Assembly: GCA_018434685.1 (NCBI GenBank) | Contig: JAHDOV010000004.1 | Location: 248,001-312,000, forward strand | Reading direction: 5' to 3' | Length of the DNA stretch: 64,000 nt | Source of the DNA: Deltaproteobacteria bacterium | GTDB taxonomy: Bacteria > Desulfobacterota > Desulfomonilia > UBA1062 | Part shown: positions 2 to 51,877 of the stretch, piece by piece | Numbering within the stretch: the stretch's first letter is position 1 | Layout: each line of letters starts with the position of its first letter | Notes under the pieces: generated by a model | What the model saw: the letters and a program-made list of their open reading frames with translations, nothing else | What the model was told of the DNA's origin: nothing | Database searches by the model: none | Program-made: the position numbers and the translations under genes

Positions 2-1594
2 GGCGGCAATACGGCTATCGATGCTGCCCGCTCTGCCCGAAGGGTGGGCAGCGATGTCACCATCCTCTACCGCAGGACCATGGCCGAGATGCCGGCAGGC
101 GCGGCTGAAATAGAGGCGGCCGGAGAGGAGGGTGTGAAAATAGAGTTCCTCTGCGCCCCGGTGGCTGTATCGGGAAACGGCGGAGGGGCAGCGACGTGCC
201 AGAGGATGGAGCTCGGCACGCCGGACACCTCCGGAAGACCTCGACCTGTTCCCGTCAGGGGCAGCGAGTTCGAGGTGACCTTCGACACGCTGATCGCAGC
301 CATCGGCCAGGACATCGGCGCACCAGGCTTCGAGGATCTTCTCGGGACATCCCCCTGGTTCACGGTGGATACCGTGGGACGGACCGCCCAGGCGGGTGTT
401 TTTGCAGGCGGCGATGCGGCGAGTGGACCCGGCCTGGTCTCTGAGGCCATCGGTGCAGGGAGAAGGGCAGCCGTGGCCATCGATGCCTTTATCAGGGGCA
501 AGAAGGCTGTCCTGCCGGAGAAAAAGGAGATCACCTACAAAGACATCCCCCTGTGTGACAGGGCGATGATCGCCAGGATCGAATCCGATGACCTTGCGGT
601 GGAAAAGAGGCTGTCGAACCCCGATGCCGAGGTCGAGCTCCCGCTGAGCCCGGATCAGGTGATCTCAGAGGGGAGGAGATGCCTTTCCTGCGGCATGCAG
701 CAGCCGAAATTCACGGGCATCCAGTATTTCGGAAAGATCTGCATCGCATGCCACAACTGTGAAGCGATCTGTCCGAACGAGGCACTGACATTCCCGCATT
801 ATTACAAGGTGGGCAATGGAAGGTTTGCCCATGACTTCGATTACCCCACGGATGCACAGGACGGATATCCGAACCCGTTGAAGAAAGACAAGACCCCAGC
901 CCTGAGCGCCATCGAATCCGAGATAACCGGGGTAGAGAAGATCATATACACCAGGAGATCCACCCGGGTGTACAAGGCCGATCCGGTCCCCAGGGGGATG
1001 ATCGAGCGGGTGCTCGAGGCCGGCAGGTTTGCGCCGTCTGCCGGGAACTGCCAGGGGTGGAAATTCGTGGTTCTCACCGACAGGGAACTTATGAGCGAGA
1101 TCAGTGCATCCACGCTCAAGTTCCTGAATCTCTTCACCAAGCTCTACCAGGGGAAGGATCCCCTGAGAACCATGGTGAAGAAGTCGCTGCCCTTTGTAAA
1201 GCCCGAAGGCAGCGACCAGCGTCCCATGGTCGCCATGCAGGCGCTCCTGACGCCGAAGTTCGGCGACAAGAAACTGAGTGTATTCTTCGATGCCCCCGCA
1301 GCCATTGTTCTGCTTACACACCATCACCACATATCGGATCCCGAACTCGGTATGGGCATCTGCGCGCAGAATATGGTGCTTGCGGCACATTCACTCGGGC
1401 TCGGCACGTGTTATGTCGGGTTTGTGGCAACCTCGCTGAACATGGACCCGATAACCAAAAAGAAGTTCAGGTCCAGGCTCGGTATCGAATGGCCCTATGA
1501 TCATGTGGGTACGGTCCTTACGCTCGGGTATCCGGCGGTGCCGGTCGACAAGCCGGTGGCCCGGGAATTTCCCCGGATACAGTGGGTGGAATAG
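2..1594 (+). CDS. FAD-dependent oxidoreductase / 4Fe-4S / nitroreductase fusion (5' truncated by window edge)
   Basis: The reading frame is open from the first bases of the window, so the N-terminus lies outside. The visible part begins in a GltD-like NAD(P)-binding segment (GGNTAIDAARSARR, then ILYRR), continues through the FAD-binding end of the pyridine-nucleotide disulfide oxidoreductase fold (GVFAGGDAASGPGLVSEAI), then a cysteine-rich stretch with a canonical 4Fe-4S motif (CIACHNCEAICP, about codon 245). The last ~220 residues are a nitroreductase-type FMN domain (RRSTRVYKADPVPRGMIERVLE; APSAGNCQGW). Known GltD-like modules pass electrons between NAD(P)H, FAD and Fe-S clusters; an added nitroreductase domain suggests an FMN-dependent reductase of unknown substrate. 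The GTG at 44 is internal, not a start. Confidence 0.85.
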   Translation, partial: GGNTAIDAARSARRVGSDVTILYRRTMAEMPAGAAEIEAAGEEGVKIEFLCAPVAVSGNGGGAATCQRMELGTPDTSGRPRPVPVRGSEFEVTFDTLIAAIGQDIGAPGFEDLLGTSPWFTVDTVGRTAQAGVFAGGDAASGPGLVSEAIGAGRRAAVAIDAFIRGKKAVLPEKKEITYKDIPLCDRAMIARIESDDLAVEKRLSNPDAEVELPLSPDQVISEGRRCLSCGMQQPKFTGIQYFGKICIACHNCEAICPNEALTFPHYYKVGNGRFAHDFDYPTDAQDGYPNPLKKDKTPALSAIESEITGVEKIIYTRRSTRVYKADPVPRGMIERVLEAGRFAPSAGNCQGWKFVVLTDRELMSEISASTLKFLNLFTKLYQGKDPLRTMVKKSLPFVKPEGSDQRPMVAMQALLTPKFGDKKLSVFFDAPAAIVLLTHHHHISDPELGMGICAQNMVLAAHSLGLGTCYVGFVATSLNMDPITKKKFRSRLGIEWPYDHVGTVLTLGYPAVPVDKPVAREFPRIQWVE

Positions 1595-1619
1595 CGTGCA
1601 GCAGGGGCAGTGCATGATG

Positions 1620-2033
1620 TCACTGCCCCTGCTCCTCCTTGTCCTGTAACAGCCGGGAGAGAACCTCTTCGATGCTGTCAGTGGTAAAGGGTTTTTCGAT
1701 ATAGTCATTCACCCCCACCTCGTGGGCAAGGGCATAGAGTTCCCTGTTCCCGTAGGCGGTGATGAGGATCTTGATGGCATGCGGACACCACCGCTGGATA
1801 CGCCCGAAAAATTTCAGGCCGTCCATGCCCGGCAGGCGGTAATCCGTCAGGATGATGTCATAGGTGTTCTTTCTGATGGCCTCGATCCCCTCTTCAGCCG
1901 TTTCAAAGGCATCGAGAGAACACCCTTCACCTGCAAAGAAGAGGCTCAGGGAATCCCGGATCCACTCGTCATCATCGATGAGCAGGATCTTTAGGTCCTT
2001 GAGTTTTACAAAGAGATTGCCCGTTGTTTTCAT
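1620..2033 (-). CDS. Stand-alone response-regulator receiver protein
   Basis: A 137-residue CheY-like receiver with no output domain. The acidic pocket (IDDDEW, D20-D22), phospho-acceptor D64 in ILTDYRLPGMDG, T92 (ILITAYG) and K114 (EKPF) are all present, so it should be phosphorylatable. Its start overlaps the stop of the preceding radical-SAM-like gene by four bases (ATGA), indicating translational coupling and one operon with the RsbRD-like gene further upstream. No kinase is in this operon; the nearest is encoded at 6612-8150. It may act through protein-protein contact with its operon partners (inference). Confidence 0.9.
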   Translation of the reverse strand: MKTTGNLFVKLKDLKILLIDDDEWIRDSLSLFFAGEGCSLDAFETAEEGIEAIRKNTYDIILTDYRLPGMDGLKFFGRIQRWCPHAIKILITAYGNRELYALAHEVGVNDYIEKPFTTDSIEEVLSRLLQDKEEQGQ

Positions 2034-3667
2034 GACAAGATATCGTCCTTAAGCCGTTGTCCTGACGCCTGTTGGGGCTCGGGTTTGTTGATGAGCTGAA
2101 TATGCCGTTTCAGGTCCGTGCCATAGTTTTCCAGGGAAAAGGCGAGAGATTCCAGCATAACCTTTGCGTAGAGGGGATTGTATCGGGCCCATTTTCTGTT
2201 CTTGTCACAGAACTCGGACCGGCTCAGGGTGAATTCGACCCGGTCGAGGCCTTCGCCGTAACTGCGCTTGTTCTCATGCATTTCTTCGATTTTCTGCCCG
2301 TAGCCGGTCTTCCACAGGTCGTCGGCAAGATCGGCAAAAACAGAGGAATACTCATCGAGAGACCGGGTAATCTCCGGGTTTTTGACGAGGGCCTCTGCTC
2401 CTTTCTGGGTCGGACGGGCCTTGAACCTCGTGCAGGCGGTTCTCCAGATCTCTGGATTATCAATAAGCATACAGGGCCGCAGCAGGTTGTCGGTATGGGG
2501 CTGGTTCATCCGGATAAAGGTGAAAAACGGCGATTGGAGAGCCTCCACCAGGGTACACTGATGGATGTTATGGGTTGCATGATGGGCAAAGATGCACGGC
2601 TCAACCTCTCCACGGCTGGTGATGTGTAGCAAACGCCTTCCGCCTGCGATACAGCCATGAACCGTTGGGGCATCGGTCAAGAAATCCATGAGGAACAAGG
2701 GATGCCTTTCGCGGTATTCCCTGATAAAGGAACCAATGTCCAGGCGCTGCTGCGGTGTCGGCATGAGGCTGAGGTCAGGGTCTGACCCCTCGGGCATGAA
2801 CAGGAAATTCCATCCGAACAACATCCCCTGCTTCTCCCAGAAATCCAGGAACTCAGGGGAGGTAAGGGTGTCATAATTTTTCGAGGTGAGCACGAAGGAC
2901 ATGCCGTACATGAGCGAGCGTCTTTTCAGGAGCGATACCGAAGCGAGCATCTGCTCGTATACCCCGTGGCCGAAGAGATCATCGGTGTCCTCCTTCGTGC
3001 CGGGAATTCTGAAGACCGGGACCATGTTTTTTTGTTCATGGAGTTGGTCTGCCATATCGGGTGTGATGCAGGTCCCGTTGGTAAATATCAGGAACAGGCA
3101 GTCTCTATGGTTTGCGGCAATGCGGGAGAGGTCATCGAAGAGGAGAAAGGGTTCCCCTCCGACGATGGTGTAGAGGTGAACCCCGATTTCCTTGCCCCCC
3201 TTGATGATCCTGTCCAGTGCTTTCAGGTCCAGTTCGTTATCAGGTGCAGGCTTGACGTCGGCTGTCTTTCCCCTGGGGGAGAGATTGTTTCTCATGGTCG
3301 GGCTGATCAGGATCGTGAAGGGAGGGCAGAACCCGTATTTTTTCTTGAGAAAATGCGCTTTTTCCATCCACTCCAGGACACAGCAGCCGAGGAAGGTTTC
3401 CACGAAGCTCTTGAGCTGACCGGGGTCTCTTGACAGGAGCTTCCGGAACGACTGGTTTGTGCCGGGGTGCGCCTGTATCCACCTCATCATTTTCCCGAAC
3501 GGTCCCTGGGTACTGAACAGGGGATCCAGAGAGGCCAGCATTTTCATCAGGGTCCCCAGGTGATCATCAGGATTCTTCCGGAGAGTGTGGACAATAAAGT
3601 CTGCACTCTTGGCCAGCCCTGCCTGTCTGGAGTTGTTCTCCGCAGTGTCTTGTCTCCACATAGTCAT
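2030..3667 (-). CDS. Radical-SAM-like protein lacking the three cluster cysteines
   Basis: 545 residues. The segment FTILISPTMR..L at about 118-129 matches the start of the radical SAM core, where the family has CxxxCxxC; here the aligned positions are N127, P131 and K134. The SAM-binding GGEP motif is kept (170-173), as is a C-terminal SPASM-like region (GCIAGGRRLLHITSRGEVEPC, about 335-356) with scattered cysteines. The gene is not broken: it is full length and in frame, with GGEP intact. A cluster-less homologue cannot do classical radical chemistry, so a binding, sensory or scaffold role is inferred. It lies between an RsbRD-like sensor gene (83 bp upstream) and a receiver gene (4-bp overlap). 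Start ATG 3667 follows a purine-rich AGGAAAGGGG. Confidence 0.75.
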   Translation of the reverse strand: MTMWRQDTAENNSRQAGLAKSADFIVHTLRKNPDDHLGTLMKMLASLDPLFSTQGPFGKMMRWIQAHPGTNQSFRKLLSRDPGQLKSFVETFLGCCVLEWMEKAHFLKKKYGFCPPFTILISPTMRNNLSPRGKTADVKPAPDNELDLKALDRIIKGGKEIGVHLYTIVGGEPFLLFDDLSRIAANHRDCLFLIFTNGTCITPDMADQLHEQKNMVPVFRIPGTKEDTDDLFGHGVYEQMLASVSLLKRRSLMYGMSFVLTSKNYDTLTSPEFLDFWEKQGMLFGWNFLFMPEGSDPDLSLMPTPQQRLDIGSFIREYRERHPLFLMDFLTDAPTVHGCIAGGRRLLHITSRGEVEPCIFAHHATHNIHQCTLVEALQSPFFTFIRMNQPHTDNLLRPCMLIDNPEIWRTACTRFKARPTQKGAEALVKNPEITRSLDEYSSVFADLADDLWKTGYGQKIEEMHENKRSYGEGLDRVEFTLSRSEFCDKNRKWARYNPLYAKVMLESLAFSLENYGTDLKRHIQLINKPEPQQASGQRLKDDILS

Positions 3668-3750
3668 TCACCCCTTTCCTGTTGAAACCGGCCTGGATCG
3701 ATGTTCGTTGCCGGGAAACGGAGGTAGCCCGGCTTTGATTTTCGGCCAGA

Positions 3751-4212
3751 TCATGATCCTATCCTCGTTGCTTGTTCTTCCTGGTACCCGACGATGGTGG
3801 CATGCACGATTTTGTCAAAAAAGAGATTCACGTAGGAGAAGAGCTCGGTGGTCTGGTTCAGGGCGTAGCCGTCGTCGAGGGATCTCTTTTCCGTGATGTA
3901 GCGGTAGATCTTTTTTTTAATGAGGAAGAGGACCTGGATGACCTCACCGAGGGGGATTCCCTCCTTGGATCTTACCCTGCCGAGACCCGTATAGTAGGCA
4001 AAGACGACATTCTTTGAGGTGTTGTTGTGGAGCCAGCTGGAAAGCCGTTTATACACGTTGTAAAGAACCTGGTGCAGCATTTCGTGCAGGATATCTTCCG
4101 GAAGATCACGGTAGTGCAGGGTCTCTTCCATGCTTCGAATTTCCGTGTTCAGCTCGTGGATCAGGAGTTCCTCGTTTTTTTCGATGAGCTCCATCAGGTT
4201 GTGGTAAAACAT
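3751..4212 (-). CDS. RsbRD N-terminal-like sensory helical protein
   Basis: 153 residues, predicted all-helical, no signal peptide. It resembles the N-terminal sensory domain of RsbR/RsbRD-type stressosome proteins and related kinases (MELIEKNEELLIHEL at the start; GIPLGEVIQVLFLIKKKIYRYI at about 87-108). No STAS, kinase or DNA-binding domain follows. A strong Shine-Dalgarno (AAGGAGGG, 5 bases before ATG) fixes the start. It is the first gene of the three-gene minus-strand operon with the radical-SAM-like protein and the receiver. Assignment rests on motif likeness only; a signal-sensing role is inferred. Confidence 0.6.
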   Translation of the reverse strand: MFYHNLMELIEKNEELLIHELNTEIRSMEETLHYRDLPEDILHEMLHQVLYNVYKRLSSWLHNNTSKNVVFAYYTGLGRVRSKEGIPLGEVIQVLFLIKKKIYRYITEKRSLDDGYALNQTTELFSYVNLFFDKIVHATIVGYQEEQATRIGS

Positions 4213-4458
4213 CGATGCCCTCCTTGTGCGGTAAGAGAACTGTGCTCTTGAAGCATAGATGGCGCCGGTATGTGCACGGCGGTGTACCGTGCCGTTGATT
4301 TCCCCCTCCCCTCCTTGTTTGAGACAGCATAATACATGCCATCAAGGTTCACGGGCGTTTCTTTCCGGGTATATCCTTTAATTAAGAGGACATATCCTGG
4401 AAATCGTGTCTGTTCGTGGTCGATGAGGGCAAGCGGGGTGTCGTAGAGGGGGAAAAAG

Positions 4459-4494
4459 TAGAAAAAACTCTAACTGCATGTAGAAAAATCTCGA
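4459..4494. promoter_or_regulatory. Operator-like tandem palindrome, copy 1
   Basis: Pattern TAGA-N6-TCTA-N8-TAGA-N6-TCGA. The half-site order and every spacing are identical to copy 2 at 4800-4835. Two dyads start 22 bp apart, about two helical turns, as expected for side-by-side dimers on one DNA face. The flanking sequence downstream (GGCCCGGGTGAG) also resembles that of copy 2. The binding protein is unknown. Confidence 0.5.
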
Positions 4495-4799
4495 ATCCTC
4501 TGCCTGGCCCGGGTGAGAAAAACAGGATCTTGAGCCAGGCTTTGAATCTATTTCATTGATTATATATTCAATAATTAATTCTGAGCCCAGGGAGCAGATC
4601 CTGAGGACCGGAACGAATCGATGGTCTGGTGCATGCTGACCGCAGATCGCCTGCACGTATTGTCCAGGGCAGGTACCAGGCTATACAGTATTTGCTGGAG
4701 CGGTTCTTGTGCTGTCCACCGGTACGGATGCCGTTATCGGGATACGGTGAGTATCTCCCCAAGAGAAGTAGAAGATTTTCAACTTTTTCTCTGAGGGGA

Positions 4800-4835
4800 T
4801 AGAGAAATCTCTAACTGACATTAGAAGAAAATCTA
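4800..4835. promoter_or_regulatory. Operator-like tandem palindrome, copy 2
   Basis: Pattern TAGA-N6-TCTA-N8-TAGA-N6-TCTA; the first dyad is the palindrome TAGAGA-AA-TCTCTA. It shares the CTCTAACTG core and all spacings with copy 1, 341 bp away, and lies about 350 bp upstream of the PAS-domain gene. A further degenerate half-site pair (TAGA-N6-TCAA) starts at 4769. Confidence 0.5.
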
Positions 4836-5181
4836 AAATCGAGCACGGCCCCCGGGATGAGCAGGTGGGCTTCATCAACCGTATGATTCTAAGGCGTTAA
4901 ATATACCAAAGACAATGCCTGATTCAAATCGTGGCATAGTTCCTGCTCCATATGGAAACCAGGATGCATCACCTGAGACCTCTTGTTTTTATCGTGCCGT
5001 TGGAAGGCCCAGGGCGGGAGGATATACACGGCAGTACGTTCTGGCATTTCCTTCAGGATGGTGCCCGGGGGATGAGCATGCCGGCATGCATAAGCCAGTT
5101 TTTCCCAGGGGGAGTCGCAGATATATAGTGTGAAAATTCGCTCAAAATGGTATAGGTTGGGGTAGGTTGCGGGGTGACGAG

Positions 5182-6582
5182 ATGACTCAACCAACATTAT
5201 TCAAAGGCAAGTTGTCAAGGAAGAACAAGCACGAGGAAAACGAATCCATCTACCGTCAGTTTTTCGAAGGTTCTCCGGATGCGCTGTATGTGACGGACGC
5301 CGAAGGCGTGATTGTGAACGTGAACAAGGCGTTCATAGAGTTGTTCGGCTACACAAAAGAGGAGATCATCGGCCAAGACATCCGCACCATTTACGTTAGC
5401 GATGACGAGAAGACCCGGTTCTGGAAACAGATTAAAAAGGAAGGATCTCTGATTTCCGCCGAGGCCCGACTGGTCCGGAATGACAGGACCGTACTCATCT
5501 GTCAGCATTCCTGCTATGTGACTACGGATTCACGGGGGGATAGTGCGGCTTACACGGGCATTGTCCGGGATATTACCGCTGTCAGAAACGATCAGGAGGC
5601 GCTACGGAAAAAGACGCGGGAACTCTCCGACAAGGTCAAGGAACTCGATTGTCTCTATGAGATCTCCACGGTCATAGAGAGGAAAGGGCACACCTTTGAC
5701 GATATCGTCAAGGGCTTCCTGGAAGTCATTCCACGGGCAGTGAACTATTCCGGGATTACCTGTGCCCGCATAACCCTCGACGGGGAGGTTTATACCAGCA
5801 GGAACTTTCAGCAGACCCCCTGGCGGATGGCCGTTGATATCATGTCGCGGTGTCATCTCGTGGGTACCCTGGAAATCTTCTACCTTGAAGAGCGTCCGGC
5901 AAACCACTACGGCCCGTTTTCCGATGATGAGAAGCGGGTTGCCGAGATGATCTCGTCGAGACTCGGGAGATTGCTCGCCCGCAAACAGGCCGAAGAGATG
6001 CTCCGGGAAAGCGAGGAGAGATACCGGAGCCTCTTCGAGGATTCCCATGATGCCATCTATACCACATCGCGAGACGGGATACTGCTGGACGCCAACCAGG
6101 CAACCCTGGACCTGTTCGGCTACAGCAGGGAAGAGATGATCGGCATGGATATCCAGCAGCTCTACGTGAACCTCCAGGAGCGGATGAAGTTCCAGACAGA
6201 GGTCGAGGAGCAGGGTTCCGTGAGAGACTATGATGTCTGGCTGAAGAAGAAGGATCGCTCCATCATGAACTGTCTTTACACCTCAAGCGTGAGGAGATCA
6301 AGAGAAGGAGAGGTCATCGGGTACCACTGCATCGTCAGGGACATCACCGAGCAGCGCCAGGCAGAGGAGGTGCGGCAGGGGCTCATAGAAGAGCTCACCG
6401 TAGCCCTGGAGAAGATCAAGACCCTGCGGGGCCTGATCCCTATCTGCGCCACCTGTAAGAAGATCCGCGACGACAGTGGGTACTGGAATCAGCTGGAAGA
6501 ATATATCGAGGCCCATTCCGATGTGGTGTTCAGCCACGGGCTGTGCCCCCAGTGCCAGAGAAGATTCGAGGAAGACGACTGA
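5182..6582 (+). CDS. PAS-GAF-PAS sensory protein with C-terminal CxxC/CxxC module
   Basis: About 466 residues. Two PAS domains (YRQFFEGSPDALYVTDAEG near the start; YRSLFEDSHDAIYTTSRDG in the second half), each ending in the PAC-like G..RDIT motif, flank a GAF-like segment (LYEISTVIERKG...FSDDEKRVAEMISSRLG). There is no kinase, cyclase or DNA-binding domain. The C-terminus is a compact module with two cysteine pairs (CATC and CPQC) around the motif KKIRDDSGYWNQLEEYI; it recurs at the end of many deltaproteobacterial PAS and receiver proteins and could bind a metal (inference). ATG 5182 is preferred over TTG 5167 because GGGGTGA sits just before it. It runs toward the convergent kinase gene. 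Confidence 0.85.
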   Translation: MTQPTLFKGKLSRKNKHEENESIYRQFFEGSPDALYVTDAEGVIVNVNKAFIELFGYTKEEIIGQDIRTIYVSDDEKTRFWKQIKKEGSLISAEARLVRNDRTVLICQHSCYVTTDSRGDSAAYTGIVRDITAVRNDQEALRKKTRELSDKVKELDCLYEISTVIERKGHTFDDIVKGFLEVIPRAVNYSGITCARITLDGEVYTSRNFQQTPWRMAVDIMSRCHLVGTLEIFYLEERPANHYGPFSDDEKRVAEMISSRLGRLLARKQAEEMLRESEERYRSLFEDSHDAIYTTSRDGILLDANQATLDLFGYSREEMIGMDIQQLYVNLQERMKFQTEVEEQGSVRDYDVWLKKKDRSIMNCLYTSSVRRSREGEVIGYHCIVRDITEQRQAEEVRQGLIEELTVALEKIKTLRGLIPICATCKKIRDDSGYWNQLEEYIEAHSDVVFSHGLCPQCQRRFEEDD

Positions 6583-6611
6583 GGAGCCTTCTCAGGGAAG
6601 TCGACAAGAGA

Positions 6612-8150
6612 TCATGGTGCGGCAGGCTCCCTTTTTATGGGCAGCTCTATGATGAATTGGGCACCGCCCAGCCGGCTTGCGGTTACCCTCAGCACGCCGC
6701 CGTGATCCGTAACGATCCTGCGGCAGAGACTCAATCCAATCCCGGTGCTGCCGTCTTTTGTGGTGTAGAACGGATCGAATATCTTGTGTCGTCTGTCCGG
6801 GGTAACCCCGGGGCCGGAATCTTCCACGCTCATGATGATGGATTCTCCCCGGGCGAATGAGGATATCCTGATCTTCTTCCCCTCGTCCATATCCTTCATG
6901 GCCTCGGCTGCATTGGTTATGAGGTTCAGAATCACCTGCTCTATGAGCTGGGGGTCGGCATAGCACGGCGGGGTGTCCGTGCTGAGGCAGAGCTGAACCT
7001 CAACACCGGTCTTGCGCAGGGTGACCGAAGACAGCGCCAGGGCATCTTCGATGGGATCGTTGATGGCGATACGGCTGAACCGGGGTTCGCTCGGTTTGGA
7101 AAAATCCATGACCCGCTTGATGACCGATTCGATCTTCAGCGAGGCCGAATGCATCTTTTCGAGAACATCCAGGGCTCTTTCCAGGCCATCTCCCCGCACC
7201 AGGATCTTTTCCAGGGCATCGAGGTAGATGTTGATACCTGACAGGGGGTTGCGTATCTCGTGGGCTATGCCGGCAGCAACATGCCCGAGCGACGTCATCC
7301 GGTCCTGTACATGGAGGAGCCGTTCCAGTTCCCTGGCCATGGTAACATCCATGATATTGATGAGGATCGCCGGGCTCCCCTGATATTCAATCGGGCTTGC
7401 ACGACAGTGCAGCCACTTCATGTCATGGAGGTCGTCCCTGTTGCCATGGGGGAAAAACCGCACGACCATGCCGGGGTGCTTTTCTTTTCCCGACAGGAGG
7501 TCCCTGTAGAGGGATTTCACCAGCGGGACATCATCGGGATGGATGTGCTCATACACTGAGGGTGCATGGGTTATGGGGAGCGGTCCCAGGAGCCTCTGCT
7601 GTTCGGGATTCCGGTAAATGATCTGTTCGTCCTGAATGATGGAGATGCCGGTGAGGGAATACTCCACCAGTTCCCGGAAAAGTTGTTCGCTCTTGGTCAG
7701 GGCGTCCTGGGCCTGCCGGTACCCAGTGATATCATGGCCGGCGGAGATGACGGTGGCAGTGGGCAGCCTGAAGTTCGCCCACAGCTGGATGCGTGTGGAG
7801 CCGTCTTTGTTGGTAACACGATATTCGCGGAAGTTTCCGTCCGGATTGGTTTTATTCCGCAGGGCCCGCCCGTATTCCCGGGGATCGGGATACAGGATGG
7901 CCAGAGAATCATCGAAGGCCAGGAGTTCCTCTTTGCTCCACCCGAGCATTTTTTCACACTGGGTATTCCACAGCAGGCACCGGCCCCGGGCGTCGAAGGC
8001 GTCAATCATGATCGGTGCCTTTTCAAAGATCGTCCTGAATTTCTCCTCGCTTTCCCTCAGAGACCGGATCGTCTCTTCCTGCAGGGCAATCTTTTCGGTC
8101 AGCTCCTCTAATCGGTTCTCCAGGTCTTTCCGTCTTGGTTTCGGCGCCAT
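6612..8150 (-). CDS. PAS-domain sensor histidine kinase
   Basis: About 512 residues, soluble. A short coiled-coil start is followed by two PAS domains (FRTIFEKAPIMIDAFDARG; FRELVEYSLTGISIIQDEQ), then HisKA with the H-box IAHEIRNPLSG and HATPase_c with N-box (LNLITNAAEAM), G1 (EDSGPG) and G2 (GSTGIGLSLCRRIV). All catalytic boxes are present, so it should autophosphorylate. No transmembrane segment: it probably senses a cytoplasmic signal. ATG 8150 is chosen because GGAGG lies 10 bases upstream; an in-frame ATG at 8198 has no ribosome site. It is convergent with the PAS gene, 29 bp apart. The lone receiver at 1620-2033 is a possible partner (inference). Confidence 0.9.
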   Translation of the reverse strand: MAPKPRRKDLENRLEELTEKIALQEETIRSLRESEEKFRTIFEKAPIMIDAFDARGRCLLWNTQCEKMLGWSKEELLAFDDSLAILYPDPREYGRALRNKTNPDGNFREYRVTNKDGSTRIQLWANFRLPTATVISAGHDITGYRQAQDALTKSEQLFRELVEYSLTGISIIQDEQIIYRNPEQQRLLGPLPITHAPSVYEHIHPDDVPLVKSLYRDLLSGKEKHPGMVVRFFPHGNRDDLHDMKWLHCRASPIEYQGSPAILINIMDVTMARELERLLHVQDRMTSLGHVAAGIAHEIRNPLSGINIYLDALEKILVRGDGLERALDVLEKMHSASLKIESVIKRVMDFSKPSEPRFSRIAINDPIEDALALSSVTLRKTGVEVQLCLSTDTPPCYADPQLIEQVILNLITNAAEAMKDMDEGKKIRISSFARGESIIMSVEDSGPGVTPDRRHKIFDPFYTTKDGSTGIGLSLCRRIVTDHGGVLRVTASRLGGAQFIIELPIKREPAAP

Positions 8151-21106: not shown

Positions 21107-21643
21107 ATGAATCTGGCAAATGCTTTGACCATATCCCGCATCGTTGTGGTGCCGGTCATTGTCATACTGCTCCTCTGTGACGGCCTCATACCTTCTGTCA
21201 TCGCAGCAGTCCTGTTTGTTGCTGCAACGATAACCGACTATCTCGATGGCTATTTCGCCAGGAAATACAACATTGAATCCGATCTGGGCAAACTGCTCGA
21301 CCCTCTGGCCGACAAATTGCTTATCGCGTCGGTCATGATCATGCTCATCCCACTGGACAGGGTGCCGGCATGGATAGCAGCCATCATCATCGGCAGGGAA
21401 CTCGCTGTTACCGGGCTGAGGAGCATCGCATCGGAAAAGCACATCATCATTGCGGCAAACTGGCTCGGGAAATACAAGACCGCATTCCAGTGTGCAGCAC
21501 TCATCCCGCTACTTATCCACTACCCGATCTTCGGCATCCAGTTCCAGCTTGCAGGAGAATTCTTCCTGTGGATTGCGCTCTTCTTCTCTGTCTGGTCGGG
21601 ATATGATTACATCTCCAGCTATGTCAAGCAGACCCTTGCGTGA
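21107..21643 (+). CDS. pgsA: CDP-diacylglycerol--glycerol-3-phosphate 3-phosphatidyltransferase
   Basis: 178 residues with four to five membrane segments. Catalyses the committed step to phosphatidylglycerol and cardiolipin. The CDP-alcohol phosphatidyltransferase motif is complete: D44, D47, G48, A51, R52, G61, D65, D69 (DYLDGYFARK...GKLLDPLADK). The N-terminal NLANALTISRI is typical of PgsA rather than PssA. Six bases follow the transglycosylase stop. Confidence 0.95.
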   Translation: MNLANALTISRIVVVPVIVILLLCDGLIPSVIAAVLFVAATITDYLDGYFARKYNIESDLGKLLDPLADKLLIASVMIMLIPLDRVPAWIAAIIIGRELAVTGLRSIASEKHIIIAANWLGKYKTAFQCAALIPLLIHYPIFGIQFQLAGEFFLWIALFFSVWSGYDYISSYVKQTLA

Positions 21644-21985
21644 GGAATAACCAGACAGCTCTGGGAATTCACGACCCACTACCTGCCTGGATTGTCCGTG
21701 ACCCAGAGATCTCTGTGCCCTCACTTGAGGGTGAAAAAATCGTGGCGGTCCTCCTGGTCTGTTCGGGTGCGCATGGAAAAAATCGCCCAATAAGTAGAAT
21801 ATAGTACCTTCCCTTGAATCGGAGGGCAGGAGGTCTCGGCATGGGAACGAGGTATAACTATAAGGTATTATTGGTTTATCATTGTTGTTATAGAGGGTTG
21901 AAGCAAGCAGAGTCCTTGTATCGTACTGCTGTGCCATGATGGGGATTGTGGCATGCCAAGGCACGACTGTGATGTTGCGCGCTGA
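21644..21985. other. Non-coding stretch after pgsA
   Basis: No intact gene. One frame from about 21897 to 21985 reads residues that could be the upstream part of the decayed HMG-CoA reductase (VLVSY...AMMGIVAC against LVASYNRGMKLINMC), but the likeness is weak. The rest shows nothing I can name. Confidence 0.4.
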
Positions 21986-22270
21986 ATAGATGAGAACAGC
22001 TGAGAGATCCGAAGGCAGGCAGAGGGCACCTCAAGGCGGCCAAGCTTGTTGCTATTGAAAAAGTTCTCACGAGCAAGTTCGTTTATCTCAGGTTCAATAT
22101 ATTGAAAACCGGCGGGAAAAGGGTGACGGCAGAAATCACCTTGAAACGAGAAATGATACAGTCCATGAGAGGGTCACTATACATGCCCTGAAATCCTTTA
22201 TGCAGCACACTGGAGGGAATCAAACTTCAGCATTCTTATCAGCAGCAGCGGTTGCAGGTGTGGATTGAAT
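21986..22270 (+). pseudogene. Decayed HMG-CoA reductase relic
   Basis: Frame pieces on the plus strand match the intact HMG-CoA reductase encoded just downstream. 21986-22035 reads IDENS*EIRRQAEGTSR against IDEHMDEIRTHAESGSR; 22040-22096 reads KLVAIEKVLTSKFVYLRFN against KLLSIDRYIASRLVYLRFN; then, after loss of about 50 codons, LKTGGKRVTAEI against LNTRGKRVIGEI up to about 22170; and 22188-22270 reads LKSFMQHTGGN against LGAFMAGASSN. Stops, frameshifts and deletions separate the blocks, so it is non-functional. Many third-position differences suggest an old paralogue or replaced copy rather than a fresh duplication. Confidence 0.75.
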
Positions 22271-22613
22271 ACCATTCCGAGGTGATCGTCTCATGCTGCA
22301 CAGTTCGGGTTTAAAGACTGTGGGGTTAAGCAGGCAAGAATTGGAGAATAGTTTTCTTCTCTATGTGGCAAAATATTACCCATCGGCAAAATGCCCACCA
22401 TTTTTAGCAAATAATATAATTGCATGATATAACTAGCCATATGACTTTTTATACAAGTAAGTAGCTGTCAATTGACTAGTATTATTTTGCTGATAAAACC
22501 ATGTATTCACTGGCACGATCTTTGAATGCCAAAGACCACTGTCATTATTTTCTGATCTTACAAGTCGGAAATGACTTGATGGTATTGAATGTTAAACTAA
22601 AATAGGGGGAATC
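22271..22613. other. AT-rich upstream region of the HMG-CoA reductase gene
   Basis: Markedly AT-rich from about 22350. A possible promoter is TTGACT at 22472-22477 with TAAAAC at 22494-22499 (16-bp spacer). The ribosome site GGGGG lies just before ATG 22614. Long minus-strand frames here are not credible genes. Confidence 0.35.
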
Positions 22614-24221
22614 ATGGGAAATACAACGAAAGAGCCCGGGCTTGTCTTGATCCACAGCACATCTGAAACAAAGGGACATGTTTCGATTCCCCCGATCATC
22701 ATGAACAAGATCTATTCTGTGGGCAGCATGAAAAACCTTGAGGATGGGTTGACATTCAACATCAAGAACCCCTTGAAAGACGGTTTGATTATCGGTATAT
22801 CCGGCATAACCATAAATAGTCAGGAAATCCCGCTGAATACTGTTGCAGTGAAGAATAACGGGACACAACTCAATGCCGACAAAATAAATACGGACCAGCC
22901 GCTTCCTTTTCCCATGGGACAGAATGTTGAATTCCACGTGTCTGCAATGGCACTTGCCAAGAACCAGGAACACACAGTCACTATTTCCTGCTATACGGAT
23001 ACTTATGGCATATTGAACCTCGAGGCAAAAGATTCGGTTATCGAGACGAGGACTGTCGGGAGAAAACTGCCATATGACAAACAGAACAACTATGACATGG
23101 ATATTGTCCGTCAGCGGCAGGCTTTTCTGGAAGAGTATACAGGCGTTCATTTTCATCATATCAAGCAGCACTCCTTTGATCCGGCTCTGACCCAGGGAAA
23201 CATCGAGAATTTCACCGGCGTAGCACAGATTCCTCTGGGGTTTGCGGGGCCTCTCATGGTCAACGGTGAACATGCCAAGGGGGAATTCTTCATTCCCATG
23301 TGCACGAGCGAAGGGACCCTTGTGGCATCGTATAACAGAGGGATGAAGCTCATCAACATGTGCGGCGGCGTAAAGGTCACGGTTGTTGAGGATCGCATGC
23401 AGAGGTCACCGGCATTTGCCTTTGACTCTGCACGGGAAGGCAGAGACTTCATGCTGTGGATCGATGAGCACATGGATGAGATACGCACTCACGCCGAATC
23501 CGGATCAAGGGTAGCGAAACTGCTGAGTATCGACAGATACATAGCGAGCAGGCTCGTATACCTGAGATTCAACTACTTCACCGGCGATGCAGCAGGACAG
23601 AACATGGTAAGCATGTGCACCTATACGGCATGTAACTGGATCCTCTCCCAGATCAATACGGTCAGGCATTTTTATCTGGACGGAAACATATCAACCGACA
23701 AGAAGGCATCTTTTATCAACAACCTCAATACCCGCGGCAAAAGAGTGATCGGCGAGATTCTGATCCCTAAAGAGATAATGCTTCAACACATGAGGGTCGA
23801 CCCTGTGACCCTTGACTATCTGTGCAGGGCCTGCCAGCTCGGTGCCTTTATGGCAGGCGCCTCGAGCAACGGTCTCCATGCTGCCAATGCCCTTGCCGCC
23901 ATCTTCATGGCAACGGGACAGGACGTGGCAAACGTATCCGAGTCGTCGGCAGGCATGGTCTGTACCGAGGTAACACCGGAAGGCGACCTGTACGGATCAT
24001 TGACTCTTCCCTCCCTGATCGTTGCGACCTACGGAGGCGGCACCGGCCTGCCAACCCAGCGCGAATGCCTTGAATCGCTTGGTTGTTACGGCCATGGCAA
24101 TGTCATAAAATTTGCAGAGATAGTCACAGCCGCAGCAACCGCAGGAGAGATCTCCCTGGCAGGAGCGATAGCATCCCTGGACTGGGCCACAAGCCATGAA
24201 CGCTTTGGCAAGAATCGCTAG
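22614..24221 (+). CDS. Hydroxymethylglutaryl-CoA reductase with extra N-terminal beta-sandwich domain
   Basis: 535 residues. The C-terminal ~390 residues are HMG-CoA reductase: catalytic Glu in TSEGTLVASYNRG, NADP/substrate region DAAGQNMVSM, catalytic Lys in STDKKAS, Asp in ATGQDVANV, and the C-terminal His in TSHERFGKN. The first ~140 residues are not part of the usual enzyme: a predicted all-beta stretch (LTFNIKNPL...ITINSQEIPL...LPFPMGQNVEF...HTVTISCYT) resembling DUF6379 / C-glycoside deglycosidase beta-subunit sandwiches. No membrane anchor. Whether it works in mevalonate formation or in HMG-CoA turnover is unknown; no other mevalonate gene is nearby. Confidence 0.85.
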   Translation: MGNTTKEPGLVLIHSTSETKGHVSIPPIIMNKIYSVGSMKNLEDGLTFNIKNPLKDGLIIGISGITINSQEIPLNTVAVKNNGTQLNADKINTDQPLPFPMGQNVEFHVSAMALAKNQEHTVTISCYTDTYGILNLEAKDSVIETRTVGRKLPYDKQNNYDMDIVRQRQAFLEEYTGVHFHHIKQHSFDPALTQGNIENFTGVAQIPLGFAGPLMVNGEHAKGEFFIPMCTSEGTLVASYNRGMKLINMCGGVKVTVVEDRMQRSPAFAFDSAREGRDFMLWIDEHMDEIRTHAESGSRVAKLLSIDRYIASRLVYLRFNYFTGDAAGQNMVSMCTYTACNWILSQINTVRHFYLDGNISTDKKASFINNLNTRGKRVIGEILIPKEIMLQHMRVDPVTLDYLCRACQLGAFMAGASSNGLHAANALAAIFMATGQDVANVSESSAGMVCTEVTPEGDLYGSLTLPSLIVATYGGGTGLPTQRECLESLGCYGHGNVIKFAEIVTAAATAGEISLAGAIASLDWATSHERFGKNR

Positions 24222-24330
24222 AATACAGCGGAGGGAACCATAAAAGAACACAGAGGTAGTCTTTTTATCTCTGACTCCACCGTCGATACAGGCACGACGC
24301 CTGGTGATGGCCCCCAAAAATCAATACCAA

Positions 24331-28612: not shown

Positions 28613-28884
28613 CAGATATCTCCTTTAAGTTCCTTGATCAGTGCTTCTGTATCTTTCTCACTAGTGATGATCCGTATGTGTTTCCCTTCGAAGGCATCTA
28701 AGTTTGCACAGGCAGTGTCGCATCCCATGACTGCCAGGATGAAATCGATGCCGGGCTCATCGGGTGAGACGAATTCAATCGTCCCACCCAGTTCCTTTTT
28801 AATACGTTTGACCATATCGACCCGATCGTAGCGCGGGGAGCATCCCCCGCAGTACTTCAGGCCTATCTTTAGAATGTTATTCAT
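28612..28884 (-). CDS. Small CGGC-motif protein of the 4-hydroxybutyrate operon, unknown function
   Basis: About 90 residues. An N-terminal CGGC motif in LKYCGGCSPRYDR is followed by an alpha/beta pattern with two more cysteines (MGCDTACANLD). Similar small CGGC proteins occur beside anaerobic CoA-ester operons in deltaproteobacteria, role unknown; redox or Fe-S handling is possible (inference). It overlaps both neighbours: the dehydratase end (28877-28884) and the CoA-transferase start (28612). ATG 28884 touches its GGAGG with no spacer; an in-frame GTG at 28899 lacks any site, so the start is uncertain. Confidence 0.65.
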   Translation of the reverse strand: MNNILKIGLKYCGGCSPRYDRVDMVKRIKKELGGTIEFVSPDEPGIDFILAVMGCDTACANLDAFEGKHIRIITSEKDTEALIKELKGDI

Positions 28885-30331
28885 CCTCCGGGATACCACA
28901 TAGATGCTTGGCGACGTCCGTCTTTGCTTTCATGTTGATCTGCCGGGCGATCATGATTCGCTGGGCCTGGGGTGAACCTGCTCCGTGCATACTCTCGGTG
29001 AGATAGCCTACAGCTGCGGTACCCAAGGTTATGTTTTCGATCAGCCTCAGCATACGCATTCTGTATTCCGTAGGGACATCCGGGTTGGCCTTGTAGTATT
29101 TCTCGATCCATTTGCCAATTTCCGGTGAGCGCAGGTCTTCTTCTGACGGTAGTGTCACCATGAGTCCGCCGGCGATATCCTGTGCGAGCCGGGCGATCTC
29201 GTAGGGGAAGCGGGTTACGTTCTGCTTGCAGACATTGGCAAGGAGTGTGTTTACGTAGTAGGTGCCGCTAGGTTCTTTGTGACCCTCGGCTGCGCAGGCA
29301 ATAGAACCGCAGAACAGGGTCTCGTTGAGGTGGTTCATCTCGATGATCTTGTCTTTCACGTGAGATGCCTTGTTGGCCCCGTTGTATACGGCAATGTTCT
29401 GGGTGGCGCCGATAAGGACATCACCGACACCGGCTTTGCAGGCGTAACTCTGGCGGTGGTACGATGCGAACTGTTCCACGAGCTGACCGGCAAAATCCCA
29501 CTCTTTGTACATGAATACTCGATCCCAGGGGACAAAGACATCTTCGAAGACCACCAGTGCTTCGTGGCCGCCGTAGAGCTGGTTGCCGCGATCCAAGGTG
29601 CCCTTTTCCAGCTTGCGGGTATCGCATGACTGACGGCCCATGATGTAGATGATTCCCTCGGCATCAGAGGGAAGGGCGAACGAAATGGCATAGTCCTTGT
29701 CTTCCTCTCGCATGCTGATGGTGGGCATGATGATGATTTCATGGGAGTTCACCGCGCCGGTCTGGTGGCATTTTGCGCCGCTGACCACGATCCCGTCGGG
29801 GCGTTCCTCGACCACGCGCATAAACAGGTCCGGATCTGCCTGCTGGTGCGGCGCCTTGCTGCGGTCACCCTTGGGGTCTGTCATGGCGCCGTCACAGGTG
29901 AGGTCGTTTTCCTGTACGAATTCGAGGTATTTCAAAAAGCGCTTGTTATACTCTGTCCCGTACTTCTGGTCGATATCGTAGGTGGTCATGGACAGGGCGT
30001 TCATTGCGTCCATGCCCACGCAGCGCTGGAAACAGCAGCCGGTGAGCGATCCGAGCAGCCGGCCCATCTTCGATTTCTTCACGAGATCTTCCGTACTCTG
30101 GTGAATACTGGTGAAGCGGTTGATTTTCTTGCCCGTGATATGGGAGGTGGTGGTCATGAGGTCCTCATATTCAGGGTAGTGGGCAAATTCATAGGTGGCG
30201 GCCACAGCATTCATGGAGGGGCGTATGATCGGATCGTCCACCGGGTTTTCCACCCGCTTGCCGAACATGTAGACTTTTAAATGTAACTTCCTCAGGCTGT
30301 CTTCGTACTGTTGAGCGTTCATCATTGGCAT
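28877..30331 (-). CDS. abfD: 4-Hydroxybutyryl-CoA dehydratase (vinylacetyl-CoA delta-isomerase)
   Basis: About 484 residues of the 4-hydroxyphenylacetate hydroxylase-like family. Converts 4-hydroxybutyryl-CoA to crotonyl-CoA using FAD and an oxygen-sensitive [4Fe-4S] cluster. The cluster ligands of the Clostridium enzyme (C99, C103, H292, C299) have counterparts: C100 and C104 in LTGCCFQRC, His292 in YHRQSYAC and Cys298. Note the His-Cys spacing is six here. The start at 30331 is chosen because AGGAG lies seven bases upstream; a longer frame to 30394 has no site. First gene of the operon, preceded by a sigma-54-type promoter. Confidence 0.93.
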   Translation of the reverse strand: MPMMNAQQYEDSLRKLHLKVYMFGKRVENPVDDPIIRPSMNAVAATYEFAHYPEYEDLMTTTSHITGKKINRFTSIHQSTEDLVKKSKMGRLLGSLTGCCFQRCVGMDAMNALSMTTYDIDQKYGTEYNKRFLKYLEFVQENDLTCDGAMTDPKGDRSKAPHQQADPDLFMRVVEERPDGIVVSGAKCHQTGAVNSHEIIIMPTISMREEDKDYAISFALPSDAEGIIYIMGRQSCDTRKLEKGTLDRGNQLYGGHEALVVFEDVFVPWDRVFMYKEWDFAGQLVEQFASYHRQSYACKAGVGDVLIGATQNIAVYNGANKASHVKDKIIEMNHLNETLFCGSIACAAEGHKEPSGTYYVNTLLANVCKQNVTRFPYEIARLAQDIAGGLMVTLPSEEDLRSPEIGKWIEKYYKANPDVPTEYRMRMLRLIENITLGTAAVGYLTESMHGAGSPQAQRIMIARQINMKAKTDVAKHLCGIPEDE

Positions 30332-30376
30332 GGGGTTGCTCCTTTCTGTGAGAATATTTCCGGAATGCCCTGTGTA

Positions 30377-32748: not shown

Positions 32749-32952
32749 TCAGATCTTGTCGCTAGTGCTGATGCCCAGGTGGGTATACAGTGGGCAGTAT
32801 CCCGATGCGGCACTGGAGAGCAGGGCACCGCTTGCGACCAGGGAGAGTGCCGTCACGAGCCGCACCCTGCCGCTTTTTATCAGGACAATAATCAGTGCCG
32901 CTGCCACCACGAATCTGCTGATCCTGTCGAGAAAACCGACGTTTGGTTCCAT
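32749..32952 (-). CDS. DUF2892 (YgaP-like) small membrane protein
   Basis: 67 residues. MEPNVGFLDRISRFVVAAALI begins a two-helix hairpin and CPLYTHLGIST closes it, the usual DUF2892 pattern (NvG..DR..R...g, then GxCPxYxxLGi). Start ATG 32952 has GGAGG six bases upstream; a longer frame to 33078 is not needed. Last gene of the TonB-dependent uptake run, 56 bp after the NTPase gene. Function of the family is unknown, though similar segments are fused to rhodanese domains. Confidence 0.8.
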   Translation of the reverse strand: MEPNVGFLDRISRFVVAAALIIVLIKSGRVRLVTALSLVASGALLSSAASGYCPLYTHLGISTSDKI

Positions 32953-33008
32953 TTCATACCTCCGATTACACAGTAGTCTCTTATTTTCAGCTGAAAGACT
33001 GCCGCATG

Positions 33009-33539
33009 TCAACCACCATTCCAGTACGAGCCGGCGATAAATGCCCTGATTCCCTCCAGGGCCTCCCGCCTGGCACATTTCTCCAGATCGATCAGGACAT
33101 GATCGATGTCCCTGGACAGGGAGCCAAGAAAATCAGCCAACAGCTCTGAGCGCACCACCAGAATGCTTCGGTGACGGGTTTTCTCCAATGAGGCAAAGAT
33201 GGGATAGTGCCCTTTTTTTTCCATCTCGAGCGGACCGAATTCATCGAAGACAAAGGGGAGATCCGGCGTTATCTCCTGGAAGTGTGTGTTGACGAGATCG
33301 AATACCTGCGGATAAAAATAAAATCGCCCGGTGCTCACCTGTGTCGCAATAGGGCTTGTGGTTGCCATGGGAACGGATCGGTGCTCCGGGAGGATAAGGA
33401 GCGAGATCCCGGTAACCGTACCTGCAGAAACCTCCTTGAGGCTCAGAAATCCCTGCACCGGAATATCGAGCCCGATGAACAGTTCCTTGAGCAGGGATGT
33501 CTTGCCGCGGCCTTTTTCACCGCTCAGCACGAGCATCAT
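33009..33539 (-). CDS. THEP1/DUF2478-like NTPase
   Basis: 176 residues. P-loop SGEKGRGKTSL at residues 6-16 and a Walker B-like FVFDEFGPLEME (about 97-108), the arrangement of THEP1-type nucleoside triphosphatases. Overlaps the binding-protein gene by four bases (ATGA), so it is translated with the transporter. NTPases of this kind sit next to some metal or cofactor uptake genes; whether it powers, gates or processes the imported ligand is unknown. Confidence 0.75.
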   Translation of the reverse strand: MMLVLSGEKGRGKTSLLKELFIGLDIPVQGFLSLKEVSAGTVTGISLLILPEHRSVPMATTSPIATQVSTGRFYFYPQVFDLVNTHFQEITPDLPFVFDEFGPLEMEKKGHYPIFASLEKTRHRSILVVRSELLADFLGSLSRDIDHVLIDLEKCARREALEGIRAFIAGSYWNGG

Positions 33540-45761: not shown

Positions 45762-46389
45762 TACTAAGGAGAAAATGGTGTATGTCACCACCGCCGAAGA
45801 GCGGATCATTCACTGGCTGCTGGCAGGGAGCTGTCTGTTTGCCCTGCTCTCCGGCCTGGGCCTGATGTTCCACTCGTGGGAGATCATCCCGACGCTGCTG
45901 GGCGGCTACTATGCAACGAAATGGATGCATATCTTCGCCGGCGTCGTGTTTGCCTTTTCACTCGTTGCGGCGAGTATCATGTGGTGGGATCACTGCAAGT
46001 TTGTTGCCGATGATGCAAAGTGGGTGGCACAGGCAGGAGGCTATCTCTGGGAGGCACACGACCTGCCGCCGTGCGGCATGTACAATGCCGGCCAGAAGCT
46101 CTTCTTCTGGTTCGTATTCGTGTTCGGGATCATCATCGTGCTCTCGGGTCTCGTGATGTTCAACCCGCTTCCCTACAATGTCACCCTTGCCCGGTGGGCA
46201 TATATGCTCCATGTGATGAGCGTGGTGGTGATCGGTTCATTTTTCGTAATCCACCTCTATCTCGGTACCGTCGGGAACCCCGGAACCGTCCAGATCATGT
46301 TCCATGGGTGGGCGACGAGGGCTTACTGCGAGTTTCACAAGGGGAAATGGCTGGCCGAGCGGGAAGCCAAAGGCGAAAAAGCCGAATAA
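45754..46389 (+). CDS. fdhC: Formate dehydrogenase gamma subunit, cytochrome b
   Basis: 211 residues with four membrane helices and haem-ligating histidines (ERIIHWLLAGS; KWMHIFAGVVF; YMLHVMSVVVIGSFFVIHLY). Passes electrons from the Fe-S subunit to the quinone pool. ATG 45754 is preferred over 45724 because GGGGGTGAGG precedes it, which gives an eight-base overlap with fdhB. Last gene before a strong hairpin. Confidence 0.93.
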   Translation: MASTKEKMVYVTTAEERIIHWLLAGSCLFALLSGLGLMFHSWEIIPTLLGGYYATKWMHIFAGVVFAFSLVAASIMWWDHCKFVADDAKWVAQAGGYLWEAHDLPPCGMYNAGQKLFFWFVFVFGIIIVLSGLVMFNPLPYNVTLARWAYMLHVMSVVVIGSFFVIHLYLGTVGNPGTVQIMFHGWATRAYCEFHKGKWLAEREAKGEKAE

Positions 46390-46404
46390 ACATGAAACAT
46401 TAAA

Positions 46405-46434
46405 AAAGCCAGGGGACATTCGTCCCCTGGCTTT
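46405..46434. terminator. Bidirectional intrinsic terminator between fdhC and the polysaccharide locus
   Basis: AAAGCCAGGGGAC - ATTC - GTCCCCTGGCTTT, a perfect 13-bp stem. On the minus strand it is followed by a run of six T's, on the plus strand by three, so it suits the end of the minus-strand locus best and can also stop fdhABC transcription. It marks the border of the AT-rich region. Confidence 0.85.
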
Positions 46435-46543
46435 ACGTTCCCGAGTAATTTTCCTAACAGATTTTCTACTGCCGCGATTCAGGAATACAATGATATGTCA
46501 ATGGGTATCCGTTATGCGCACATGAACAGCAATTTGTATTTTA

Positions 46544-47644
46544 TTAGGTAAAGACACAGTCACCATCTCCATCCTGAATAATAATTTCGTTAAAATCTAC
46601 CTCCTTAAATTTATTGGAGAAGTGATATAATTTGACTCGGTTTATTTTGTACAGAAAGGGTAATCTAATTTTATTGAGATTATTTATGACATCTCTATTG
46701 TAAGTCTTAAATATATCGATATTCATTTCACATATCAAAAAGCCTATGAGATAGAGGATAGGGGTCAATGCACTGGGATCACAATACAGGTACGGAATAG
46801 TCATGATGTTGTTTTTCACCTTGAGCATAACAAACCCAGTCATCGTATCGTTTATGTCATATACCTTTATATTGAGATAGAGAAACCTCTTGGAGACAGA
46901 GGAGAAAAAATATTTTTGGACAGTCTTGTCTGCGACAGGAGATGAGATGATCCACGGGTATTTGATTATCCAATTGAGGTTTTTTGCGTTCCTTGTTGAT
47001 AATTCATTTCGTCTATGGTCTCTTATAAATTGATCTGTCTGTTCATCCAACTCCGCTATGAATTCTATAGAAGCTGGTTTGTAAGAGGCGTTTTTCTGTC
47101 TCCAAAAAAACAGACGAAGATCACCAAACACATTGACCAGCCGATCTACACACTTGAGCACAGGGCTCAGCCAGCTGAGCTTCGGGAATTTTTTTAGGAT
47201 GAAATACTTGCTGCAACAACGCGCGATAAATTCTATTCCCTCGACTTTTCTCAATGTGGAGATCTTGTTCGATGCCTGATATACATTTTCAGCATCATCT
47301 GTGGCGCCCGATGTCGCGAGAGTATGGTGATTTAATACCGTTAGTAATAAGAAACCGCCTGTCCCGGCAAATCGATGATTTGGGTCAACCCACCAGGTAG
47401 TTGCCCACGCTATCTTATGTTCAACGTTGTTGAGATGAATCTTGTCAGGTAATACGCCGATATAACCGATTATACTATCCTCATGGTGCGCGACAAATAA
47501 AACGATATCATTCCCATCAGCATTTGGATTGTTGATGTACGAGATCACTCGCTGCTTTGTGATGGGGAAGATGTTTTTACTCCACAATGTGCCTTGCTGG
47601 AGTTCCTTTTTCAGGTCATTGATCGTGTATTTTACAATCTTCAT
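46544..47644 (-). CDS. GNAT-superfamily acyltransferase-like protein, copy A
   Basis: 366 residues. The N-terminal third has the GNAT pattern (IVLFVAHHEDSIIGYIGVLPDKI, then KIAWATTWWVDPNHRFAGTGGFLLL, where V/I-x-x-x-x-R-G-x-G appears in relaxed form); the C-terminal half may be a second GNAT-like lobe (FVMLKVKNNIMTIPYLYCD). It is a full-length paralogue of copy B (51878-52978), also 366 residues and also ending QDG-D/E-GD-x-VFT. It starts eight bases after a deacetylase gene. Probable N- or O-acylation of a surface-polysaccharide sugar (inference). AT-rich. Confidence 0.65.
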   Translation of the reverse strand: MKIVKYTINDLKKELQQGTLWSKNIFPITKQRVISYINNPNADGNDIVLFVAHHEDSIIGYIGVLPDKIHLNNVEHKIAWATTWWVDPNHRFAGTGGFLLLTVLNHHTLATSGATDDAENVYQASNKISTLRKVEGIEFIARCCSKYFILKKFPKLSWLSPVLKCVDRLVNVFGDLRLFFWRQKNASYKPASIEFIAELDEQTDQFIRDHRRNELSTRNAKNLNWIIKYPWIISSPVADKTVQKYFFSSVSKRFLYLNIKVYDINDTMTGFVMLKVKNNIMTIPYLYCDPSALTPILYLIGFLICEMNIDIFKTYNRDVINNLNKIRLPFLYKINRVKLYHFSNKFKEVDFNEIIIQDGDGDCVFT

Positions 47645-47652
47645 GTCAGATT

Positions 47653-49476: not shown

Positions 49477-49496
49477 TATTTCTCCTCTCTCTTTTC

Positions 49497-49988
49497 TCAG
49501 GCTTTCAGAGGGATTAAACCATTTTTAAAGTCAGTATAGCTGGTATCCAGTGTGAGGGGGACAGTGACTCGTGCAATGGGTTTTGCAGGAACGCCACCCA
49601 CTAATGTATAGGGAGGCACATCTCTGGTTACCACGCTACCAGCGGCGAGTGCGGCACCCTCGCCTATGGTGACCGTTTGTCCACCGGCTGCCGCAATGAT
49701 GCATCCAGAGCCGATCCACGCCTTGCTGCGTATGATAATCTTTCCCGGACCCCTCAGGTGGGCGACTAAAGTCACCCGCAGGGCAATCACCACGTCCTCC
49801 TGAATCTCGATACACTCGGGGTATTCGTTTTCTATATAGACTTCCTCGCCGATGAAGACCCTTCCCGATATCTTGACGCCACGCATGCGATGTAAGAAGG
49901 GACGTAAGGTAATTGTGCCAGGCGAAAATCTCGCAGCAAGATGGAGGACCCTGTTAACCAGGCCACGTAGCAGAGTCTTGTTTTGCAT
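49497..49988 (-). CDS. Hexapeptide-repeat acyltransferase (serine/colanic-acid O-acetyltransferase type)
   Basis: 163 residues. Left-handed beta-helix repeats ([71 protein letters not shown]) typical of WcaF/CysE-like O-acetyltransferases using acetyl-CoA. GSVVT.DVP.. and VGG.PAK are the usual C-terminal signature. First gene of the short minus-strand run with the large deacetylase and GNAT copy A. Acceptor unknown, presumably a polysaccharide sugar. Confidence 0.87.
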
Positions 49989-50347
49989 TCGATACCTCCT
50001 CGATCATTTTCGACAGGTTACCCATTCCTGTCTCCAGCAGCCCTGGAAGGGGTGATAACCTCATATGACGATTGTAAGTCACTATGATCTTGACACCTAT
50101 TTTAAACATGATTACTTTTCACATATAAAGAAGAATAGCAGTCGTGTGTTCGGGTATTAGTTTCATGACATCGGAACAGATTTGTATTTTGCTTGGAAGA
50201 TATTGTATTTTTCCTCGGGGGCAGCGAAGAGAAGCTTTCTGTTTACGCTGAAGGATCATTGATGTTTTGTTTCACAAACAACTGGCATGAATTGTGCTTA
50301 TTGTCTCTCATTGAAATAAATCACAACAAGGAAAACGGAGACAACTT
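49989..50347. other. 359-bp divergent region between acyltransferase and beta-helix genes
   Basis: AT-rich, no gene. It should hold the promoters of both divergent neighbours; one candidate is listed separately at 50090-50118. Confidence 0.45.
50090..50118 (+). promoter_or_regulatory. Promoter candidate for the beta-helix gene
   Basis: A consensus -35 TTGACA (50090-50095) with 17 bp to TACTTT (50113-50118). The -10 match is poor and the 5' leader would be about 225 bases, so this is tentative. Confidence 0.3.
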
Positions 50348-51769: not shown

Positions 51770-51877
51770 TCTATAGCTTACGGTGATCCAACGGGCTCGG
51801 CTGAGAGGATATTTCAGCCGAGCCCGGCTATATCTCCCGAATCTAAAGAGGCCTTTTGAAACCGTTGATCTGTTCCT

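Follow-up and report, generated by a model that had tools for sequence, protein, structure and literature searches.

The window, by which we mean the whole stretch of 64,000 nucleotides that was analyzed, carries an intact gene for a protein resembling HMG-CoA reductase (HMGR), and the DNA directly upstream of this gene had been taken in a preliminary description for the relic of another such gene. The locus thus raises the questions of whether the relic is real, from which lineage of reductases it descended, and what it records about enzymes of this kind in these bacteria.

The relic proved to be real, as its collinear translated similarity to HMGRs was significant in both profile and shuffle tests. 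In frameshift-tolerant alignment against one profile of 33 HMGRs, the interval 21644-22613 scored 142.6 (antisense 27.2), whereas none of the 124 tiles of the remaining window scored above 52.3 and the 970-base stretches preceding 22 other HMGR genes reached at most 46.0, so that no relic was found upstream of any of these 22 genes by this alignment. In frameshift-tolerant local alignment, the whole interval scored 138-158 against HMGR profiles, compared with shuffle maxima of 55-71. With 26 HMGR proteins of this genome and its relatives as tblastn queries, the plus strand of the same interval yielded KAAKLVAIEKVLTSKFVYLRFN (22033-22098), followed by the GGKRVTAEITLKRE stretch up to 22170, at 36-37 bits for the best queries (at most 36.6), against a best of 30.0 bits among 300 dinucleotide shuffles. 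The similarity was unevenly distributed along the interval: the part 21986-22170 scored 126 with a maximum of 33.5 in 100 shuffles, none of which was as good; the left part (21644-21985) scored a marginal 37.5, which 5 of 100 shuffles matched; and the right part (22171-22613) scored 26.3, which 65 of 100 shuffles equaled and which is therefore at chance level. On these part-by-part scores, a genuine relic is present, and its secure extent is confined to HMGR residues 283-320 and 371-387. Thus, of the four blocks originally placed in order, the core at 21986-22152 was upheld and the last block, after 22170, was not. A chance similarity in intergenic DNA would account for the flanks right of 22170 and left of 21986, which are at or near chance level; for the core it is refuted by the shuffles and by the window tiles, and as an explanation of the relic its probability is practically negligible. 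The features concerned are the following.

21986-22152, plus strand: secure HMGR relic (tblastn, frameshift-tolerant alignment with shuffles, codon alignment), with secure blocks for residues 283-298 (frame of 21986), 299-320 (frame of 22033), and 371-387 (frame of 22102)
21700-21985, plus strand: possible further relic, HMGR residues about 189-282, insecure on the shuffle scores
22182-22270, plus strand: last block of the preliminary description, no better than chance in the shuffles
22001-22003, plus strand: in-frame stop TGA in the first block (sequence, alignment)
22099-22101, plus strand: in-frame deletion point (alignment), at which 49 codons (HMGR residues about 321-370) are gone, including the TDKK motif
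22154-22181, plus strand: dispersed repeat, likely a mobile-element end, with matches in the same genome and in two family relatives
22614-24221, plus strand: intact HMGR-like gene of type A1 (see below), 535 amino acids (Pfam PF00368, 6.1e-119; PF25653, 5e-21)

The stops, frame changes, and deletion of about 50 codons noticed earlier amount to one in-frame stop, one frameshift, and 49 missing codons. The first block reads IDENS*EIRRQAEGTSR, in which the asterisk is the TGA codon, and the alignment places the frameshift near 22033. The TDKK motif, which contains the catalytic lysine, is at residue 361 in both intact copies of the genome. In addition, the identity of the relic to intact HMGRs over 61 codons was higher at codon positions 1 and 2 than at position 3 in all 33 comparisons (Fisher p from 5.3e-3 to 2.5e-10), which indicates that the relic diverged under protein-level selection before its death and agrees with its earlier characterization as a diverged, once functional gene. 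As far as can be judged from the sequence, the relic is today most likely without function.

Part of the relic is overlain by the dispersed repeat. Positions 22154-22181 matched C13:8646-8673 in the same genome at 27 of 28 bases (E 2.4e-5), and the 25 bases at 22157-22181 are identical to those at C13:8649-8673. A scan allowing up to three mismatches found this 25-mer in 3 of 395 genomes of the phylum, all from the same family: two copies in this genome, two in G015, and one in G017, those of the relatives with 2-3 mismatches. The 25-mer read backward, which served as a control in the 395 genomes, gave no match among the matches listed. Three of the four other copies have about 17 extra bases in common on the left, ending in ctgg, and the right flanks otherwise diverge immediately after CTATA; because one of the G015 copies resembles the G017 copy over the flanks printed, these two may represent a single ancestral site. 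The repeat likely fits the end of a small, undescribed mobile element. In the loci examined, a search for partner repeats at 4-8 mismatches gave none, and neither a transposase nor a partner end was detected; viral contigs and plasmids contained no exact match of the 25 bp. Since the relic codons at 22153-22170 overlap the repeat, they were not counted as relic and were excluded from the final tree test.

To place the relic, the intact HMGRs were classified by identity as type A1 (the window gene and its kin, 75-90%), type A2 (68-74%, in other genera), and type B (60-64%), the last of which is resident in an operon with a methyltransferase gene and an LPG_synthase_C gene. The second intact HMGR of this genome (C22:146013-147611, on another contig) is a B copy with 62% identity to the window gene. 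Of this genome and the 59 others searched (60 in all), 18 gave an HMGR match. Among the 23 family relatives, 16 had a match and 7 had two full copies on different contigs, and none carried an intact HMGR of the relic type. The expectation that relatives might hold two intact copies was therefore borne out in these seven, while an intact tandem pair was seen only in L097, a related metagenome-assembled genome (MAG).

The placement of the relic depended on the HMGRs with which it was compared. In the first trees, which lacked HMGRs of Desulfobacterota from outside the family, the relic joined B or branched off at the base of A, and the DNA tree had it inside B; the addition of nine HMGRs of other Desulfobacterota moved its best place onto their branch. 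The HMGRs of 54 loci (L103-L157 minus L104, already included) joined the comparison for the letters of the relic, and its IDEN, LTSK, and TLKR letters are also present in the outside Desulfobacterota HMGRs. In the final test (55 codons, repeat-derived codons removed), the branch of the outside HMGRs was again the best place, with AU values of 0.92 for protein and 0.83 for DNA, and a sister position to the B copy of this genome was rejected (p 0.003 and below). The phylogeny thus did not join the relic to the clade of its neighbor, as a local origin would have it, but placed it best with the HMGRs of other Desulfobacterota. Because the relic is sister to neither intact copy, it probably represents a third lineage. 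These tests draw on 55 codons and a long branch, on which attraction of the decayed sequence to deep branches is possible.

Two duplication scenarios have to be weighed against a third lineage. That the relic is a dead tandem duplicate of the neighboring intact gene might be suggested by its position on the same strand, 0.4 kb upstream, and by the intact tandem pair known in L097; however, every placement in or on the stem of the A1 clade was rejected with both protein and DNA, at AU p < 0.01 in the final test and at p < 0.02 in an earlier test that included the outside HMGRs and kept the repeat-derived codons. Without the outside HMGRs, positions inside the A1 clade were likewise rejected (p < 0.05), and its stem was not (p 0.11 in the protein test). 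Moreover, the relic and its neighbor share 33 of 61 residues, which is among the lower values, compared with 35-41 for B copies. We regard such a local duplication as very improbable; the tree tests rule it out, and its rescue would need gene conversion between the two copies. The simple pair with the neighboring gene proposed earlier was accordingly not sustained, as the genome also has its second intact HMGR, which is not the sister of the relic either. The main rival is an origin from the resident B type, by a duplication that split off before the two B copies of the same genus diverged. The stem of the B clade was not rejected, with AU values of 0.13 for protein and 0.06 for DNA, the DNA tree without the outside HMGRs placed the relic inside B, and the HMGR matches obtained in relatives when searching with the relic DNA were all B genes. 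However, the log-likelihood of this placement was 8-10 units below that of the best place, and positions on the terminal branch of either same-genus B copy, as well as on the stem common to both, were rejected in both alignments. We consider a B-type duplicate unlikely, albeit clearly less so than a local one, and judging from these placements the relic probably belongs to a third HMGR lineage, derived from an old paralogue or by transfer.

The surroundings of the relic were compared with those of relatives, which gave the following features.

21107-21643, plus strand: CDP-alcohol phosphatidyltransferase gene (pgsA-like; PF01066, synteny), left border of the segment
21644-32752: segment of 11.1 kb that G001 and G002 lack at this site (synteny)
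22440-22613, plus strand: DNA leading up to the intact gene, conserved in G002 (73% identity across some 170 bp), where the stretch peculiar to the relic ends on the right

G001 and G002, which belong to the same genus, show an unchanged gene order to the left of 21643, and their next matching DNA corresponds to 32753-33021 and 32760-32966 of the window; in G016, the two segment borders are about 83 bp apart. This synteny puts the relic at the left edge of a segment that came to this site by insertion or rearrangement. The segment contains the relic, the A1 gene, a NERD-domain gene, a CoA-transferase gene, an HpaB-family gene, and a sigma-54 activator gene; because it also holds the intact A1 HMGR, the relic and the A1 gene probably arrived or were rearranged together. 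In G002, 22440-24298 (one match of 1,862 bp) and 28760-30333 were matched at another place, where the relic is absent. No tRNA, end repeat, or element boundary was found at the borders of the segment. The proposed replacement of one reductase by another could not be demonstrated here: an intact gene of the relic type occurs at this site in none of the relatives, and the segment itself is missing from the site in the two genomes of the same genus. At the other HMGR or pgsA sites of the relatives, no secure relic was found. A weak match in G002 (L051, E 0.03), considered as another relic, belongs to a TM7S3/TM198-like membrane protein, and weak matches in the relic search also came from G005 (L075, E 0.03, 29 residues). 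Around the relic, no remains of HMGR operon partners (methyltransferase, LPG_synthase_C, and others) were detected (best E 0.25), and no RNA family was found in the window. Elsewhere in the window (46000-60000), the GC content is 0.43-0.45 along roughly 14 kb, down from about 0.55, and this part is possibly acquired DNA.

The reductases in question occur without a visible mevalonate pathway. HMG-CoA synthase (PF08540) had no match in this genome, which is 99% complete, nor in any of the 24 genomes of the family (this one included); it was over the cut-off in one of eight other Desulfobacterota genomes. Of 14 genomes from other groups that carry this kind of HMGR, one had it over the cut-off (three at E 0.001). 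As many of these genomes are drafts, such absences are weak singly but consistent as a set. Mevalonate kinase (TIGR00549) also had no match in this genome, and Dxr of the MEP pathway is present. All four HMGR-like proteins tested fell below the cut-off of the NCBIfam HMG-CoA reductase model (TIGR00533), with 345 bits for the intact neighbor against a cut-off of 441.8. The HMGR-like proteins (window 22614-24221, L002, and L095-L157; PF25653 was tested on the window gene) occur in genomes mostly lacking HMG-CoA synthase. The bacteria thus seem not to use the HMGR-like enzyme for its textbook role.

In several Desulfobacterota (L050 4910-8570; L095-L104), genes for a methyltransferase, LPG_synthase_C (MprF-like domain), and HMGR recur together as a module, the product of which is perhaps a modified lipid. 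A scan of genome contigs kept 80 of 145 relatives, and of 80 loci L097 alone (Deltaproteobacteria MAG Zod_Metabat.1020, JAFGBH010000054.1) showed a second HMGR in view; there, methyltransferase, LPG_synthase_C, HMGR, LPG_synthase_C, and HMGR genes follow one another in an intact tandem arrangement, with the duplication of LPG_synthase_C plus HMGR at 1294-7545. Our search of the literature found nothing on HMGR relics or on this module in these bacteria.

Taken together, the results show that the relic is a pseudogene, what is left of a third HMGR-like gene, whose lineage was probably deep and separate from those of the two intact copies. This gene was once under selection, and its source would have been either an old paralogue or a transfer from another Desulfobacterota lineage; its function was lost through the stop, the frameshift, and the deletion that removed the TDKK region, and the short repeat within it likely marks the end of a mobile element. 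The relic now stands at the left edge of the segment, between two genes that are near neighbors in relatives. It records that three or more HMGR-like genes were once present in this lineage, one of which has been lost. Taken by itself, the pseudogene is ordinary, and the reductases without a mevalonate pathway are the more interesting part; because these reductases occur without HMG-CoA synthase, the relic gains some weight. Much more tentatively, it could stem from a third lineage of an HMGR-like enzyme with no part in isoprenoid synthesis, whose copies duplicate, move, and are repeatedly gained and lost, partly as the module described above, perhaps in the modification of lipids.

In comparison with known systems, the intact neighbor resembles HMG-CoA reductases in its matches to PF00368 and the N-terminal PF25653 and in its nearest solved structure (6hr7, an HMG-CoA reductase, E 7.5e-86), but it differs from the enzyme of the mevalonate pathway in its NCBIfam score and in its genomic context, which has no match to HMG-CoA synthase or mevalonate kinase. 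In the pair of L097, too, the two HMGR genes share a strand, at a distance of 1.4 kb; however, both are intact, an LPG_synthase_C gene lies between them, and both belong with the outside Desulfobacterota HMGRs, with no A1 gene. Bacterial pseudogenes are common and arise by duplication or transfer, followed by decay. From these the relic differs in nothing essential, although none of the intact copies in the 23 family relatives represents its source lineage, and it shares with them collinear homology, a stop, a frameshift, a deletion, and a leftover codon-position bias.
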